Shown in pieces: positions 16,570 to 20,907 of a stretch of DNA of 64,000 nucleotides. The stretch is from Psychrobacter sp. FDAARGOS_221 (GTDB lineage Bacteria; Pseudomonadota; Gammaproteobacteria; Pseudomonadales; Moraxellaceae): assembly GCF_002313155.2 (NCBI RefSeq), contig NZ_NWFK02000001.1:1054001-1118000 (forward strand), in the 5' to 3' direction. Below the pieces are notes generated by a model. That model searched no databases, was not told the DNA's origin, and saw nothing but the letters and a program-made list of their open reading frames with translations. Position numbers and translations under genes: made by a program. The stretch's first letter is position 1. Each line of letters starts with the position of its first letter.

Positions 16570-16830
16570 ATGGCACGTGTAACTGTAGAAGACTGCTTAC
16601 ATGCAGTAGACAATCGCTTTGAGCTGGTACTGGTTGCCAGTAAGCGCGCCCACCAATTAGCAAAGGGCATCGCTGAGCCATTGGTTGATGTGGACAATGA
16701 CAAACCCACTGTTTTGGCGTTACGTGAGATTGCCGCCGGTCTGGTCACTAAAGATATTTTAGACCAGCCTGATCATCATTTTGCGACCAACTCATTAGAC
16801 ATGGCTTTAAGTAACGGTCAAGGATTCTAA
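16570..16830 (+). CDS. rpoZ: RNA polymerase omega subunit
   Basis: An 86-aa omega subunit. It binds the beta-prime C-terminus, helps assemble core polymerase and forms part of a ppGpp site in proteobacteria. The family signature is clear: ARVTVEDCL at the start, [16 protein letters not shown] (the core helix) and [15 protein letters not shown]. The length is close to the E. coli 91 aa. The start is preceded by AAGAGGACGTT. A terminator follows directly. Its normal partner spoT is downstream but interrupted by an insertion sequence. Confidence 0.96.
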
Positions 16831-16852: not shown

Positions 16853-16891
16853 AAAAAACCACGATGCGCACTCGCCTATCGTGGTTTTTTT
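16853..16891 (+). terminator. Intrinsic terminator after rpoZ
   Basis: AAAAAACCACGAT pairs with ATCGTGGTTTTTT around a 13-base loop. It separates rpoZ from spoT, so spoT needs its own promoter. Confidence 0.9.
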
Positions 16892-17282
16892 ATCGCCTTA
16901 ATTTTTCATTGCTGTATTTTGTTATCGCTTTGTGTTTTTATCAGATAATTTTTTAATATTATTCATTTAAAATCCTATATTTAATAGGTTTAATATCATT
17001 TATAAGGCTGTCATTTCCCACAGCTTTTGATAAACTTAGCGGCTTTTTTAACGCAGGCAATGATTTATTTAACGCTTTATGCTATTTATACTGTTGACAG
17101 CACGCTGTTTTTACGATTAATTAAGAGGTTAGCTGTACTTTTTACTTTAATTGATATAAATACAACCCTATATAATATATTGTATTAAACGATTGAAAAT
17201 AGCCTTAAAAAAACAGGCTCTAAAAGAAAGATAGTTATTGATTGTTTTAATTTAACTGCCGCTTACCTGAAGGATGAATACT
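16892..17282 (+). promoter_or_regulatory. Gene-free AT-rich interval holding the original spoT promoter
   Basis: Candidates are TTGACA at 17094-17099 (17 bases to a weak TTAATT) and an exact TATAAT at 17171-17176 without a good -35. Either would have driven spoT before the insertion. Now they read into the 3' end of the insertion sequence, opposing its transposase. Confidence 0.45.
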
Positions 17283-17475
17283 ATGACAGTCCCCAAAACT
17301 GATTCCAAGCCCATCACTCAGGCTAGCACTAACGCATCAGACTCTAAAACGGATATGATAAAAAATTTGAATACTGATATTGACGGTCATGTCATTAATA
17401 ACATTGCCAATGATGAGAACATCATAGATCCTATTATTAGTGCTGATATCGATCTGCCTAATTCTGATGAAGATG
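17283..17475 (+). pseudogene. spoT: 5' fragment of spoT cut off by the insertion sequence
   Basis: The original start of spoT: the ATG at 17283 has AAGGA eight to nine bases upstream (another ATG at 17274 lies on the Shine-Dalgarno sequence and is less likely). The 64 codons up to the insertion encode a Thr/Asn/Asp-rich, probably disordered segment (TDSKPITQASTNASDSK near the start, DIDLPNSDED at the end). The frame then runs into the element and stops at 17478-17480. Deleting 17476-18663 plus one GATG copy joins this frame exactly to the spoT body, with eight more codons before its present first ATG. Confidence 0.85.
17472..17475. repeat. Target-site duplication GATG, left copy
   Basis: GATG abuts the left tip (TGTAA) of the element; the matching copy is 18664-18667. 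Four bases is the size expected of the IS407 group. Confidence 0.8.
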
Positions 17476-17516
17476 TGTAAATACCCCATTCTTAACACAA
17501 CATCATCGTAGAATAA

Positions 17517-18296
17517 TTAAGCCACCTGTCTATACTGGGCAGGTGTCATATCATTAAGTGAATCATGGGGTCTTTCGGTGTTATAAACCGTGATCCACTC
17601 CTCAGTCAGTTGACTGACTTCATTTAAATCATTGAATAAATAACAATCCAAAACCTCATTGCGGTAACTACGATTAAACCGTTCAATATAAGCATTCTGA
17701 TAAGGACAGCCAGGCTCAATATAGTCAATATAGATACCGTGAGCCGTTGCCCAATCAGTAAACACTTTAGAGGTGAACTCACTACCATTATCCACACGAA
17801 TTTGCTTAGGATAACCATGCCACTCGGCTAACTGGTCAAGGTAGCGAATCACTCGGAGTGAGGGAATGCTGGTACCAATATCAATGCCGAGTATTTCGCG
17901 GTTGTAATCATCAATCACATTAAAGGTTCGAAAGCGAATATTATTGTGCAGCTTATCGCTCATAAAGTCCATAGACCAAGTATGACCCAATGCGTTTGGC
18001 ACACTTAACGGCTGGGGGTTACGTGTTGGTAGCCGTCTTTTAGACTTACGGCGTAGGTTTAAGTTTAAAGCTTTATAAACACGGTGTACTCGTTTATGAT
18101 TCCATGAATAGCCAAGCTTGCGTATACGCTTAAAACACTTTGGGAAACCCCAACGATTGTGCTTATCTGTTAGTTCATTTAAGACATCAATAATCTCACT
18201 ATCATCAGATAGCTTAGGCTTATAGTAATAAGCGGTTCGACTCATACAGACCACCTGACAGCTCGATGCAATACTGACACCATACTGCGCCTGCAA
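17517..18296 (-). CDS. IS3-family transposase OrfB (DDE integrase domain)
   Basis: The catalytic part of the IS3 transposase, 259 aa from the first ATG. A rve integrase core shows the three acidic residues: Asp in WSMDFMSD, Asp in RVDNGSEFTS, and Glu in YIERFNRSYRNEVLD. An HTH_21-type segment (DKHNRWGFPKCFKRIRKLG) precedes it. In life it is probably made mainly as an OrfAB fusion by -1 slippage near 18338-18344, the fused frame continuing through residues AIAPACERKVWAQELQAQ. There is no stop or frameshift within it. Confidence 0.93.
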   Translation of the reverse strand: MQAQYGVSIASSCQVVCMSRTAYYYKPKLSDDSEIIDVLNELTDKHNRWGFPKCFKRIRKLGYSWNHKRVHRVYKALNLNLRRKSKRRLPTRNPQPLSVPNALGHTWSMDFMSDKLHNNIRFRTFNVIDDYNREILGIDIGTSIPSLRVIRYLDQLAEWHGYPKQIRVDNGSEFTSKVFTDWATAHGIYIDYIEPGCPYQNAYIERFNRSYRNEVLDCYLFNDLNEVSQLTEEWITVYNTERPHDSLNDMTPAQYRQVA

Positions 18297-18331
18297 TTCT
18301 TGAGCCCAGACTTTGCGCTCACAAGCAGGCG

Positions 18332-18592
18332 CTATAGCTTTTTTATGATATCTTCCTGCATTTGCGCTTTGAGGCTTAAATCAGCATACATCTGTTTAAG
18401 CCTACGGTTTTCTTCTTCAAGCTCTTTTAGTCGCTTAACATCAGAGGCTTCCATGCCTCCATACTTGGAACGCCATTTATAGAAAGTCGAATTAGCAATT
18501 CCGTACTTACGGCACAGCTCTTTAGCAGGTATTCCTGCTTCTGCTTCTTTTAAAATGGATACTATTTGGGTCTCAGTCATTCGTTTGCTCAT
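18332..18592 (-). CDS. IS3-family transposase OrfA (HTH and leucine zipper)
   Basis: An 86-aa DNA-binding part of the transposase. A helix-turn-helix (TETQIVSILKEAEAG to CRKYGIANSTFYKWRSKYGG) is followed by a coiled coil (KRLKELEEENRRLKQMYADL) used for multimerisation. AAGGAG lies upstream of the ATG on the minus strand. The frame ends one codon after the slippery A AAA AAG, as expected for programmed -1 frameshifting. Confidence 0.93.
   Translation of the reverse strand: MSKRMTETQIVSILKEAEAGIPAKELCRKYGIANSTFYKWRSKYGGMEASDVKRLKELEEENRRLKQMYADLSLKAQMQEDIIKKL
18338..18344 (-). promoter_or_regulatory. Programmed -1 frameshift heptamer A AAA AAG
   Basis: On the minus strand AAAAAAG lies just before the orfA stop. 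Slipping back one base enters the orfB frame, which is open from here to 17517. Confidence 0.8.
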
Positions 18593-18663
18593 ATTAAAAC
18601 TCCTTATGGGTATTTTATAAGAAATTCTACGTTTGAGCTGTGTTATTTTAGGGGATAGTTACA

Positions 18664-18667
18664 GATG
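18664..18667. repeat. Target-site duplication GATG, right copy
   Basis: It directly follows the right tip (ACA on the plus strand) of the element and matches 17472-17475. Confidence 0.8.
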
Positions 18668-18690
18668 ATCATGTCAATCAAACCTCTTAT

Positions 18691-20907
18691 ATGCAAAAGC
18701 TGCCCAAGCTGAGTCACCACTTGGTTGATGAATCTCAGCGCAATCTTATGCGTGCAGTGGCTTATTTAACCGATACCGAAAAACAAGATATACTTGATGC
18801 CTGCGCCTTTGGTGACAAAGCGCATATTAAAGACAAGCGCAAATCTGGTGAGCCTTATATCACTCACCCGATTGCTGTGGCTGAAATCTTAGCCGGATTC
18901 AGACTAGACCGTGATTCGATCATTGCTGCTATTTTGCACGATACCGTTGAAGACACAGAAGTAACCTCTGAGCAAATCTCTGAGCGTTACGGCATTACTG
19001 TTGCTCGCCTAGTCGACGGGGTAACCAAGCTAAAATCATCTAATCACAACAAACAACAAAATAAAGCGGCAACTTTCCATAAGATTATGTCCGCAACTTT
19101 AGATGATCCACGCGTACTGATTATCAAATTGGCTGACCGTCTACACAACATGTCTACATTGGATTCGGTGCGTCCTGAGAAGCAGCGTGCAACCGCATCA
19201 GAGACCTTGCAGTTTTATGTGCCCTTTGCCCGCCTAATGGGGCTTAACGATATCGCTGACTATATGGAAATCTTGTGTTATCGCAACCTAGATCCAGTGA
19301 TGTATACCAAAATGTCGGACAAGCTGTTACAGCACGGCTTGGGGCGTAAATATCAAAAAGAAGCCATTCAGCAATACCTCAATTATGTACTCGATAAACA
19401 TGCCATATCTGGCCATGTGCGCGTGCTCGACAATCAAGTAATTATGTACCGTCAGTTCTTCCGTAACCGTGGTGAAATGGAAGATTTACTGCGCCACTAT
19501 GCGTTTGAAATCGTCACCAATACCATTGAGGACTGTGATTCTCTGGCTGATTACTTGATTAAAAAATACCGTATTCCGAATAATTTAATTGAAGACAACA
19601 TTCGTCATCCGCTTCCTGGTGGCAACCAGTCGTTAACGCTGACTTATATTCGTGATAACGATACCATTAAGGTCACCTTACTGACCCGTAAAATGCAGGC
19701 AGCGGCACGCTTAGGTGTGATTGGTGCGGAGCAAGCTTCTGATCTGAGTCGCTCTGTTATTAAAGCCTCTTTACGTAATATGAAAGAGCTGATTGATACC
19801 AAGCAAGACGAAGACAAAAACTCAGACAGCAACGTCGACGCAGTCGATAAAAATGCAGATAATTATGACGATATGGTGGAAACCATTGACGAGCTGATCT
19901 CATATTTAAATAGCCGAAAAATTGTCTGCTATAGTCCTAAAGGACGTGCTTATGAGCTGCCTAGAGGAGCGACAGCGTTAGACTTTGCTTATGCCGTCGG
20001 TCCTAAAGTGGGCAATATTGCAACCGGCGCAAAAATTAATGGTCATAACGCCAAACTGGGTTCTGTATTACAAGCCGGCCAAAAAGTTGAAATCGAAGTA
20101 GATAAAGATGCCAAGCCAAAAGCAGAGTGGCTAGGTATCGTAGTGACCAGTAAAGCGCAGCGTACGTTAAAACGTTGGTTTAGTAGTTTGCCTGAAGAAG
20201 AGCAACAGCAGCATGGCAAGCAAGCGTTAGACCGTGCGTTACAGACTTATGGTAAGTCTATCAAGGATGTCACCCAAGAAGACTGGGAAGACTTGTTACA
20301 GTGGCAAAATGTGAGCAGCAAACAGGATCTGTATCAAAGAATGAGTGCTGGCGCGCTATTGCCACAGTTGGTAGTGTCTCGCTTATTTAGTGATGATGTG
20401 ACCAAATCGCATCAGCAAGCACATAAGACTGGCTTTAACCGTCCTAATCAGCTGTTATCTAATGCCAATGGTGTGGAAGTACACTTTGCTGGTTGTTGCC
20501 GTCCTATCTTCGGTGATCCAATTATCGGTCACTTAACCATGCATGGTCTGGTGCTACATCGTCACCGCTGTTACTCGATCATTAATAAATATGCTGAGAA
20601 ACCCTACGAGCTGGTGCAGCTAGATTGGTATAGCGAAGAAGAGATTGAAAAGCATATCGAACACCCTAGCGATCGCCCTCACTTTACCGCCTATTTGAAA
20701 ATTAATCTGGCGTTAAATGATGAACAAGTTTCTCATGTACTATATACTCTACGACAGCTTAGTATTGGCATCGAAAAAGTGGATATTCGCTCAGACTCCA
20801 CCATCATTCATGTCATTGTACGCAGCCGTAGCCATGTGCTTGAAGGTATTGAAGCACTGCGCCCACACGTCGGTTTTGGTAGTATCAGACGCCTTTACCG
20901 CTTATAA
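18691..20907 (+). CDS. spoT: RelA/SpoT-family (p)ppGpp hydrolase, N-terminus displaced by an insertion sequence
   Basis: The body of SpoT, 738 aa from the first ATG left after the insertion. The hydrolase HD domain (about 25-175) is intact: His 59 in ITHPIAVAEI, the HD pair at 83-84 in ILHDTVED, and KLADRLHNM. The synthetase region (about 215-345) is recognisable but degenerate: GNQSL replaces the usual GYQSLH, and KVTLLTRKM replaces EVQIRT, so the protein is probably hydrolase-only. A TGS domain (about 390-460), a CC/zinc-finger-like segment (GCCRPIFGD to LHRHRC) and a C-terminal ACT domain follow. No Shine-Dalgarno sequence precedes 18691, nor the next ATG at 18748. The intact gene would start at 17283 (about 810 aa). 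It may be expressed poorly. Confidence 0.85.
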   Translation: MQKLPKLSHHLVDESQRNLMRAVAYLTDTEKQDILDACAFGDKAHIKDKRKSGEPYITHPIAVAEILAGFRLDRDSIIAAILHDTVEDTEVTSEQISERYGITVARLVDGVTKLKSSNHNKQQNKAATFHKIMSATLDDPRVLIIKLADRLHNMSTLDSVRPEKQRATASETLQFYVPFARLMGLNDIADYMEILCYRNLDPVMYTKMSDKLLQHGLGRKYQKEAIQQYLNYVLDKHAISGHVRVLDNQVIMYRQFFRNRGEMEDLLRHYAFEIVTNTIEDCDSLADYLIKKYRIPNNLIEDNIRHPLPGGNQSLTLTYIRDNDTIKVTLLTRKMQAAARLGVIGAEQASDLSRSVIKASLRNMKELIDTKQDEDKNSDSNVDAVDKNADNYDDMVETIDELISYLNSRKIVCYSPKGRAYELPRGATALDFAYAVGPKVGNIATGAKINGHNAKLGSVLQAGQKVEIEVDKDAKPKAEWLGIVVTSKAQRTLKRWFSSLPEEEQQQHGKQALDRALQTYGKSIKDVTQEDWEDLLQWQNVSSKQDLYQRMSAGALLPQLVVSRLFSDDVTKSHQQAHKTGFNRPNQLLSNANGVEVHFAGCCRPIFGDPIIGHLTMHGLVLHRHRCYSIINKYAEKPYELVQLDWYSEEEIEKHIEHPSDRPHFTAYLKINLALNDEQVSHVLYTLRQLSIGIEKVDIRSDSTIIHVIVRSRSHVLEGIEALRPHVGFGSIRRLYRL

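Follow-up and report, generated by a model that had tools for sequence, protein, structure and literature searches.

The genome of Psychrobacter sp. FDAARGOS_221, a single contig of 3,160,997 bases (completeness 100), carries an insertion sequence (IS) of the IS3 family within spoT, the gene for the hydrolase of the alarmone (p)ppGpp (guanosine penta- or tetraphosphate). The locus lies in a stretch of 64,000 nucleotides (contig positions 1,054,001-1,118,000), which is called the window below and provides the coordinates used for the locus. We propose that this recently mobile, IS407-group-like element was inserted in a lineage-specific N-terminal extension, predicted to be disordered, of a hydrolase-only SpoT, and that the insertion removed the native promoter linkage, the Shine-Dalgarno sequence and the start codon, leaving a frame of 738 codons whose beginning coincides with that of SpoT in most of the genus. 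SpoT made from this residual frame most likely sustains the cell, with the ATG at 18691 as its probable start and with transcription presumably coming from read-through or by chance. Taken as a whole, the reading that an insertion into the extension leaves a residual-frame SpoT sustaining the cell, probably at a reduced level, appears to us a likely one. As far as can be judged from the sequence, what has been lost is the set of normal start signals of spoT, and not the enzyme itself.

Structure of the element and of the interrupted gene

The element (17476..18663; 1188 bp, with its transposase encoded on the minus strand) begins with TGT, finishes with ACA and is flanked on each side by GATG, the two copies of its target-site duplication being at 17472..17475 and 18664..18667. 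Its terminal repeats are imperfect, with 17 of 40 positions identical when ungapped and a clear match when small gaps are permitted. The first gene, orfA (18332..18592, minus strand), encodes 86 aa and contains an A-AAA-AAG slippage site at 18338-18344, while orfB (17517..18296, minus strand) encodes an integrase core recognized by Pfam, in which we read a complete D-D-(35)-E motif. OrfB scores 228.9 bits against the NCBIfam profile transpos_IS3 (NF033516; cut-off 160), which marks it as a DDE transposase of the IS3 type, and the A-AAA-AAG lies in frame within the orfA/orfB overlap, an arrangement consistent with -1 frameshifting. There are eight identical full-length copies of the element in the genome, and all eight have their own perfect 4-bp duplication, as expected of the IS407 group; because these duplications match in every case, the insertion is beyond what chance would produce. 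In its orfA/orfB organization with A-AAA-AAG slippage, its D-D-(35)-E motif and its 4-bp duplication the element resembles the IS407 group of the IS3 family, a subgroup to which we presume it belongs, following the label given in an earlier note on this DNA. According to PMC3281130, four IS407-group elements described there span 1197-1269 bp and three of the four have 4-bp duplications; the present element is slightly shorter. As the transposase is encoded on the minus strand, its 5' end, and therefore the left inverted repeat (IRL), adjoins spoT.

To the left of the element, the 5' piece of spoT (17283..17475, plus strand) has the native ATG, an AAGGA Shine-Dalgarno sequence and 64 codons of the extension, and reading on from 17283 gives one hybrid codon and then a stop just within the element. 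To its right the spoT frame resumes, with the ATG at 18691 as its first start codon, and runs for 738 aa through the hydrolase domain, the pseudo-synthetase, the TGS domain and the C-terminal region (18691..20907, plus strand). The flanks of the element were each compared on their own, never joined, with orthologues from the uninterrupted clade relatives (seven loci, L029-L035, which with the window make 8 rows), and in all seven both stretches sit in a single open frame. The earlier note had described the element, its GATG duplication and its place after codon 64 of the frame starting at 17283, together with the imperfect inverted repeats and a frame that continues across the insertion, all of which we confirm; the loss of the start codon, Shine-Dalgarno sequence and promoter linkage of spoT, which it also claimed, is supported. 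An assembly error, for which the eight identical copies would offer possible misjoins, is very unlikely indeed in view of the perfect duplication at every copy, the presence of the same gene on both sides and the complete, one-contig state of the genome.

The residual frame encodes a putative hydrolase-only SpoT

The residual frame is free of stops and contains the HD and TGS domains by Pfam. Both sequence and fold searches return the SpoT of Acinetobacter baumannii (7qpr) as the best match, with residues 23-735 alignable; the window model fits 7qpr with a template modelling (TM) score of 0.41-0.45 and a root-mean-square deviation of about 28 at an E-value of 6.9e-52, a poor global fit that we take as reflecting domain arrangement. 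The predicted structure is confident from residue 1 (block means 78, 92, 93, 94) and includes a confident helix at residues 10-22, most of which would be removed by a start at the next ATG (18748, residue 20). The hydrolase motifs ITHP, LHDTVED and LADRLHN are present at residues 57, 82 and 147, as in the SpoT[Hs] type, the roles of their catalytic residues being those seen in Rel structures. The loss of the synthetase that is also characteristic of SpoT[Hs] is seen in the replacement of the GRVKH, FDQLYD and EIQIRT stretches of RelA, and the PF04607 profile stays below its cut-off on SpoT (20.4 vs 27 bits). RelA is the mirror image of SpoT in these motifs, with the synthetase kept and the hydrolase lost. 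The end branch of this spoT measures 0.04 and is not longer than that of its sister, 0.085. By its motifs and extent, the residual frame encodes an ancestral-length, putatively hydrolase-only SpoT with a dead synthetase. The Moraxellaceae SpoT has been described as hydrolase-only (PMC9974481; PMC3153485), and Psychrobacter is named alongside Acinetobacter as having SpoT[Hs] (PMC3153485); the protein described here likewise keeps the hydrolase motifs and has lost those of the synthetase. Unlike the A. baumannii SpoT, the proteins of this clade carry about 70-80 additional residues at the N terminus, predicted to be disordered, and it is this extension that the element cuts.

A lineage-specific coding extension

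The nearest named relative judged by SpoT is Psychrobacter lutiphocae (P0002, 90% identity), whose sequence falls within an 819-codon open frame (locus L029, genome G032). The comparison across the genus covered 105 Psychrobacter genomes including this one. The first 64 codons of the window frame align to the P. lutiphocae extension with gaps that are in-frame only, and the extension is common to the 8 related rows, which a supported branch (99/97) separates from the others. The spoT open frames of 90 of the 105 genomes have 726-763 codons and are too short to hold it (that of G062, counted among these, may be truncated, as 26 bases separate its start from a contig end). Frames of at least 800 codons occur in 10 of the 105, and the frame in the window has 751 codons; three genomes (G074, G077 and G078) also have long spoT frames, but with N-terminal sequences dissimilar to the extension. 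No spoT-type match was found in one of the 105 genomes, G081, which is 77% complete. Frame changes, arising from mutation or sequencing error, break spoT in three others: G024 (L066, G024:C2:159000-164500), a 99% complete genome whose spoT is broken once, near residue 502, G049 (L067) and G051 (L068), the latter two being of low completeness (84 and 86). All 19 short loci inspected start with M-S-Q-[TN]-LPKLSH, one codon ahead of the residue of ATG 18691, and have a modest AGGA site of about -4 kcal/mol.

Substitutions in the extension are distributed over codon positions 1, 2 and 3 at 31, 19 and 41%, compared with 11, 5 and 48% in the body of the gene. The ratio of non-synonymous to synonymous substitution (dN/dS) of the extension is 0.09-0.56 where computable; for the body it is 0.022-0.026, a range given by the six unsaturated pairs out of 28, and in those six, where both could be computed, the extension has 4-18 times the value of the body. 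Furthermore, no stop breaks the extension in any of the seven uninterrupted relatives; six of them have AAGGATGAT ahead of the upstream start, and L032 has ATGGATGAT. Because of this openness, the codon-position pattern with the dN/dS values, and the site ahead of the upstream start, the extension is by these measures coding, and by the same comparison it is weakly constrained, less so than the body. These observations also bear on the alternative that SpoT of this clade starts at the ATG equivalent to 18691, with the extension being an untranslated leader and the insertion only separating the promoter from the gene. That ATG is found in seven of the eight clade rows, window included, and the public annotation of the P. 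lutiphocae SpoT starts even later; but besides the open frame, the codon-like evolution and the AAGGATGAT of the extension, this alternative has to contend with the lack of a Shine-Dalgarno sequence before the inner ATG (by eye; by energy in the window only) and with a TTG at that position in the sister species, and we consider it quite unlikely.

In the predicted structure of an 800-residue relative (P0006), residues 1-68 have a predicted local distance difference test score (pLDDT) below 50, mostly about 30, from which the extension is predicted to be disordered; as the overall confidence of this model is low (pLDDT 65.3, predicted TM score 0.35), only the contrast of residues 1-68 with the rest was used. 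On this evidence the coding loss is confined to a lineage-specific extension that most of the genus lacks. The shortened SpoT foreseen in the earlier note is the likely product, but 'shortened' means here the usual length of the genus, with only the lineage-specific extension lost. The same note had also considered that relatives might begin SpoT at the position of 18691 and have unrelated sequence at 17283-17475. Most of the genus does begin there, whereas in the close clade the frame from 17283 is homologous and, by the above evidence, coding. The public P. lutiphocae SpoT is annotated with 716 aa, despite its 819-codon open frame, and this annotated start excludes the extension together with the greater part of the first helix.

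Recent mobility of the element

The nearest full-length copies of the element in other Psychrobacter are 86-94% identical to it, and those of other species do not exceed 94%. Counting this genome, at least 14 of the 105 match the element with an E-value of 1e-100 or lower, a count that is a lower bound because four candidates were scored per genome; with the same four candidates scored, the P. lutiphocae genome is not among them. Beyond the genus, plasmids of Moraxella osloensis match at about 78% across 84% of the element length. As the copies are identical in this genome, at most 94% identical elsewhere and without a listed match in P. lutiphocae, the element most likely reached or spread in this genome after the split from P. 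lutiphocae. The insertion in spoT is recent, to go by the eight identical copies with their own duplications and the uninterrupted spoT frame of P. lutiphocae, and here too the earlier note is upheld. Another identical copy (L014; G000:C1:2494005-2495192 plus flanks) breaks a frame like that of a TetR-type regulator (PF21943 and PF00440 are both below cut-off), which we presume to resemble FabR/DesT. Two further identical copies (L017 and L018; G000:C1:519398-523092) lie about 1.3 kb apart in opposite orientation, and a frame holding or adjoining one of them appears to resemble a MocR-type regulator.

The earlier note had further suggested that the state may be reversible on account of the intact transposase. 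The case for this is weak, as IS3-type copy-out transposition leaves the donor copy in place. Transposition of IS911 proceeds by copy-out paste-in (PMC9330008), and precise excision of IS629, another member of the IS3 family, is reported to be transposase-dependent and mediated by the helper protein IEE (PMC9330008; PMC9397093). A reversible switch was accordingly set aside as gaining no support from the mechanism, with no search for an excision-enhancer gene having been made.

Expression signals around the insertion

The upstream neighbor of spoT is rpoZ, identified by its translation as encoding omega (16570..16830, plus strand). After rpoZ, at about 16857-16891, a hairpin with a T-run, its loop longer than the terminator scan allows, is conserved in all eight aligned loci, so that spoT is probably a transcription unit separate from rpoZ. 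A candidate native spoT promoter, recognized by eye and not in the scan list, is located at 17094..17122 (plus strand), where TTGACA, shared by seven of the eight aligned upstream regions but not by that of P. lutiphocae, precedes a conserved block that reads TTTTTAAGATTAATTAAG in most relatives and TTTTTACGATTAATTAAG here, with a weak -10 match. Ribosome sites were compared with those of 36 ATG-start genes of the window (53 open reading frames (ORFs) minus 18, plus rpoZ), some of whose starts are perhaps misassigned. By this comparison the native start at 17283 has an ordinary Shine-Dalgarno sequence, with 16 of the 36 genes having a stronger one.

Several observations weigh against the expression of the residual frame that we propose. 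The anti-Shine-Dalgarno energy at ATG 18691 is +1.5 kcal/mol, and all 36 genes have stronger sites, in agreement with the earlier note, which had seen no ribosome binding site there; poor sites are not rare among these genes, seven of the 36 being at -1.0 or weaker. The better ribosome site beside 18691 serves the out-of-frame ATG 18665, and the ATG 18691 codon is not a conserved start, since P. lutiphocae has TTG at this residue. Promoter-like sites are not enriched (8, compared with 8.5 in shuffles). Terminator-like sites number 5 against 1.5 in shuffles, with four of the five falling within the element and on the strand of spoT, and this excess speaks against read-through. Finally, the protein cluster of P0001 has one member, no second strain of the species being seen.

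Two promoter-like sites directed toward spoT, each matching 9 of 12 positions, lie within the element at 17697 and 18072, and the final 563 bases of the element contain none by the promoter scan. With no junction site in the scan list, an outward promoter there was rejected as a candidate. A related alternative is that the element end drives spoT, either from a promoter pointing outward or through translational coupling of a leader ORF created by the insertion (18665..18712, plus strand; 15 codons), which overlaps the spoT start and whose significance is inferred. In its favor, AGGGGA in the element end (18650..18655, plus strand) and the duplicated GATG form a good ribosome site, Shine-Dalgarno-like for ATG 18665 and not for ATG 18691, with a duplex energy of -6.4 kcal/mol that 7 of the 36 genes surpass, and a TG-T-TATTTT stretch resembling an extended -10 can be seen by eye at 18641-18649. 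However, this stretch has no visible -35 before it and is absent from the sites listed by the promoter scan; the leader ORF is read in a different frame from spoT; and in IS911 the outward -35 lies in the right inverted repeat (PMC9330008), whereas here IRL faces spoT. We regard this alternative as possible though doubtful, and the more specific version, in which SpoT would be made by re-initiation or start-site sharing from the element-born leader at 18665 and the transposon end would set the (p)ppGpp level, as distinctly improbable.

RelA and the dependence on residual SpoT

The relA gene, at about position 1,313,306 of the genome, comprises 904 codons in a single open frame, keeps its synthetase motifs intact and shares about 85-86% identity with its counterparts in five clade relatives. 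Its start-site stretch, AAGGGAGGAAGAC-TTG, is identical to that of four of these five and slightly different in the fifth. The relA of the clade (L060-L065) appears to start at this TTG, with a strong AAGGGAGGA site, and another Psychrobacter locus, L069, has ATG there. A profile search of the genome with PF04607 gave no further synthetase above cut-off, and one with PF13328 (HD_4) gave SpoT and RelA only, with no further hydrolase. PF01966 matched in five places including SpoT, and among the other four the one inspected is a 207-aa protein that we take to resemble a YfbR/HDDC2-type nucleotidase. A small alarmone hydrolase acting as back-up was rejected on the PF13328 result, PF13328 and PF01966 being the families searched.

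Given the seemingly competent RelA, and with the searches revealing no other (p)ppGpp hydrolase, the cell is most likely dependent on the SpoT of the residual frame. In A. baumannii, deletion of spoT alone failed in a relA+ background despite a second small hydrolase (PMC12742793), so that the earlier note's argument from E. coli, in which SpoT hydrolysis is essential when RelA is active, holds within the family, where it called for a check of its own because the Moraxellaceae SpoT is described as hydrolase-only. Because spoT resists deletion in that relA+ relative, its loss from relA+ E. coli goes with suppressors in relA (PMC4154780) and relA looks intact here, the strain should still make SpoT. 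The residual frame is thus very probably still expressed, perhaps weakly, and a raised basal ppGpp is plausible.

The alternative is that SpoT is effectively lost and that the cell survives via a reduced or regulated RelA or via suppressors elsewhere. The start signals of spoT are gone, and in E. coli, relA+ cells given a spoT deletion survive with mutations in relA, not all of which abolish RelA activity (PMC4154780). In addition, an alignment of seven RelAs shows 36 positions peculiar to this one, eight of them being insertions, and an in-frame ATG six codons before the relA TTG in four of the five relatives is ATA here, a change that would alter the start, and so matter for this relA, only if those four relatives start at that ATG. 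The open frame of relA with its intact motifs and its identity to the relatives argues to the contrary, as do the shared AAGGGAGGAAGAC-TTG start site, where L069 has ATG in place of TTG, and the residual spoT frame, which has no stop and an end branch no longer than that of its sister; we judge this loss of SpoT unlikely. The altered relA that the earlier note had put forward as compensator finds, the ATA notwithstanding, little support, and we rejected it as a matter of judgement, given that the TTG with its AGGGAGG site is common to all five relatives and L069 has ATG. RelA is apparently competent, to judge from its coding sequence.

Implications

No published insertion in a Psychrobacter spoT was recognized in the literature as judged by titles and the starts of abstracts, and the spoT mutants in the excerpts of PMC12959161 and PMC6427688 are substitutions or a small indel rather than an IS in spoT. 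An IS within a gene is common, and the present case is ordinary in kind though instructive.

It is familiar from transposon-sequencing practice that essential genes can tolerate insertions at their ends, and here too the frame of a gene that is undeletable in a relative is broken outside its folded domains. Unlike those insertions, this one is natural, is found in a closed genome and lies upstream of all domains, so that the start site must be replaced. If the reading based on the 18665 leader were true, a transposon end would replace the native promoter and the N-terminal tail in the control of (p)ppGpp. The extension itself is known in one Psychrobacter lineage, and in at least one species, P. 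lutiphocae, the public annotation omits it. With SpoT as the only recognized alarmone hydrolase beside an apparently competent RelA, the locus would be a natural experiment on the extent to which a supposedly indispensable gene tolerates replacement of its start.

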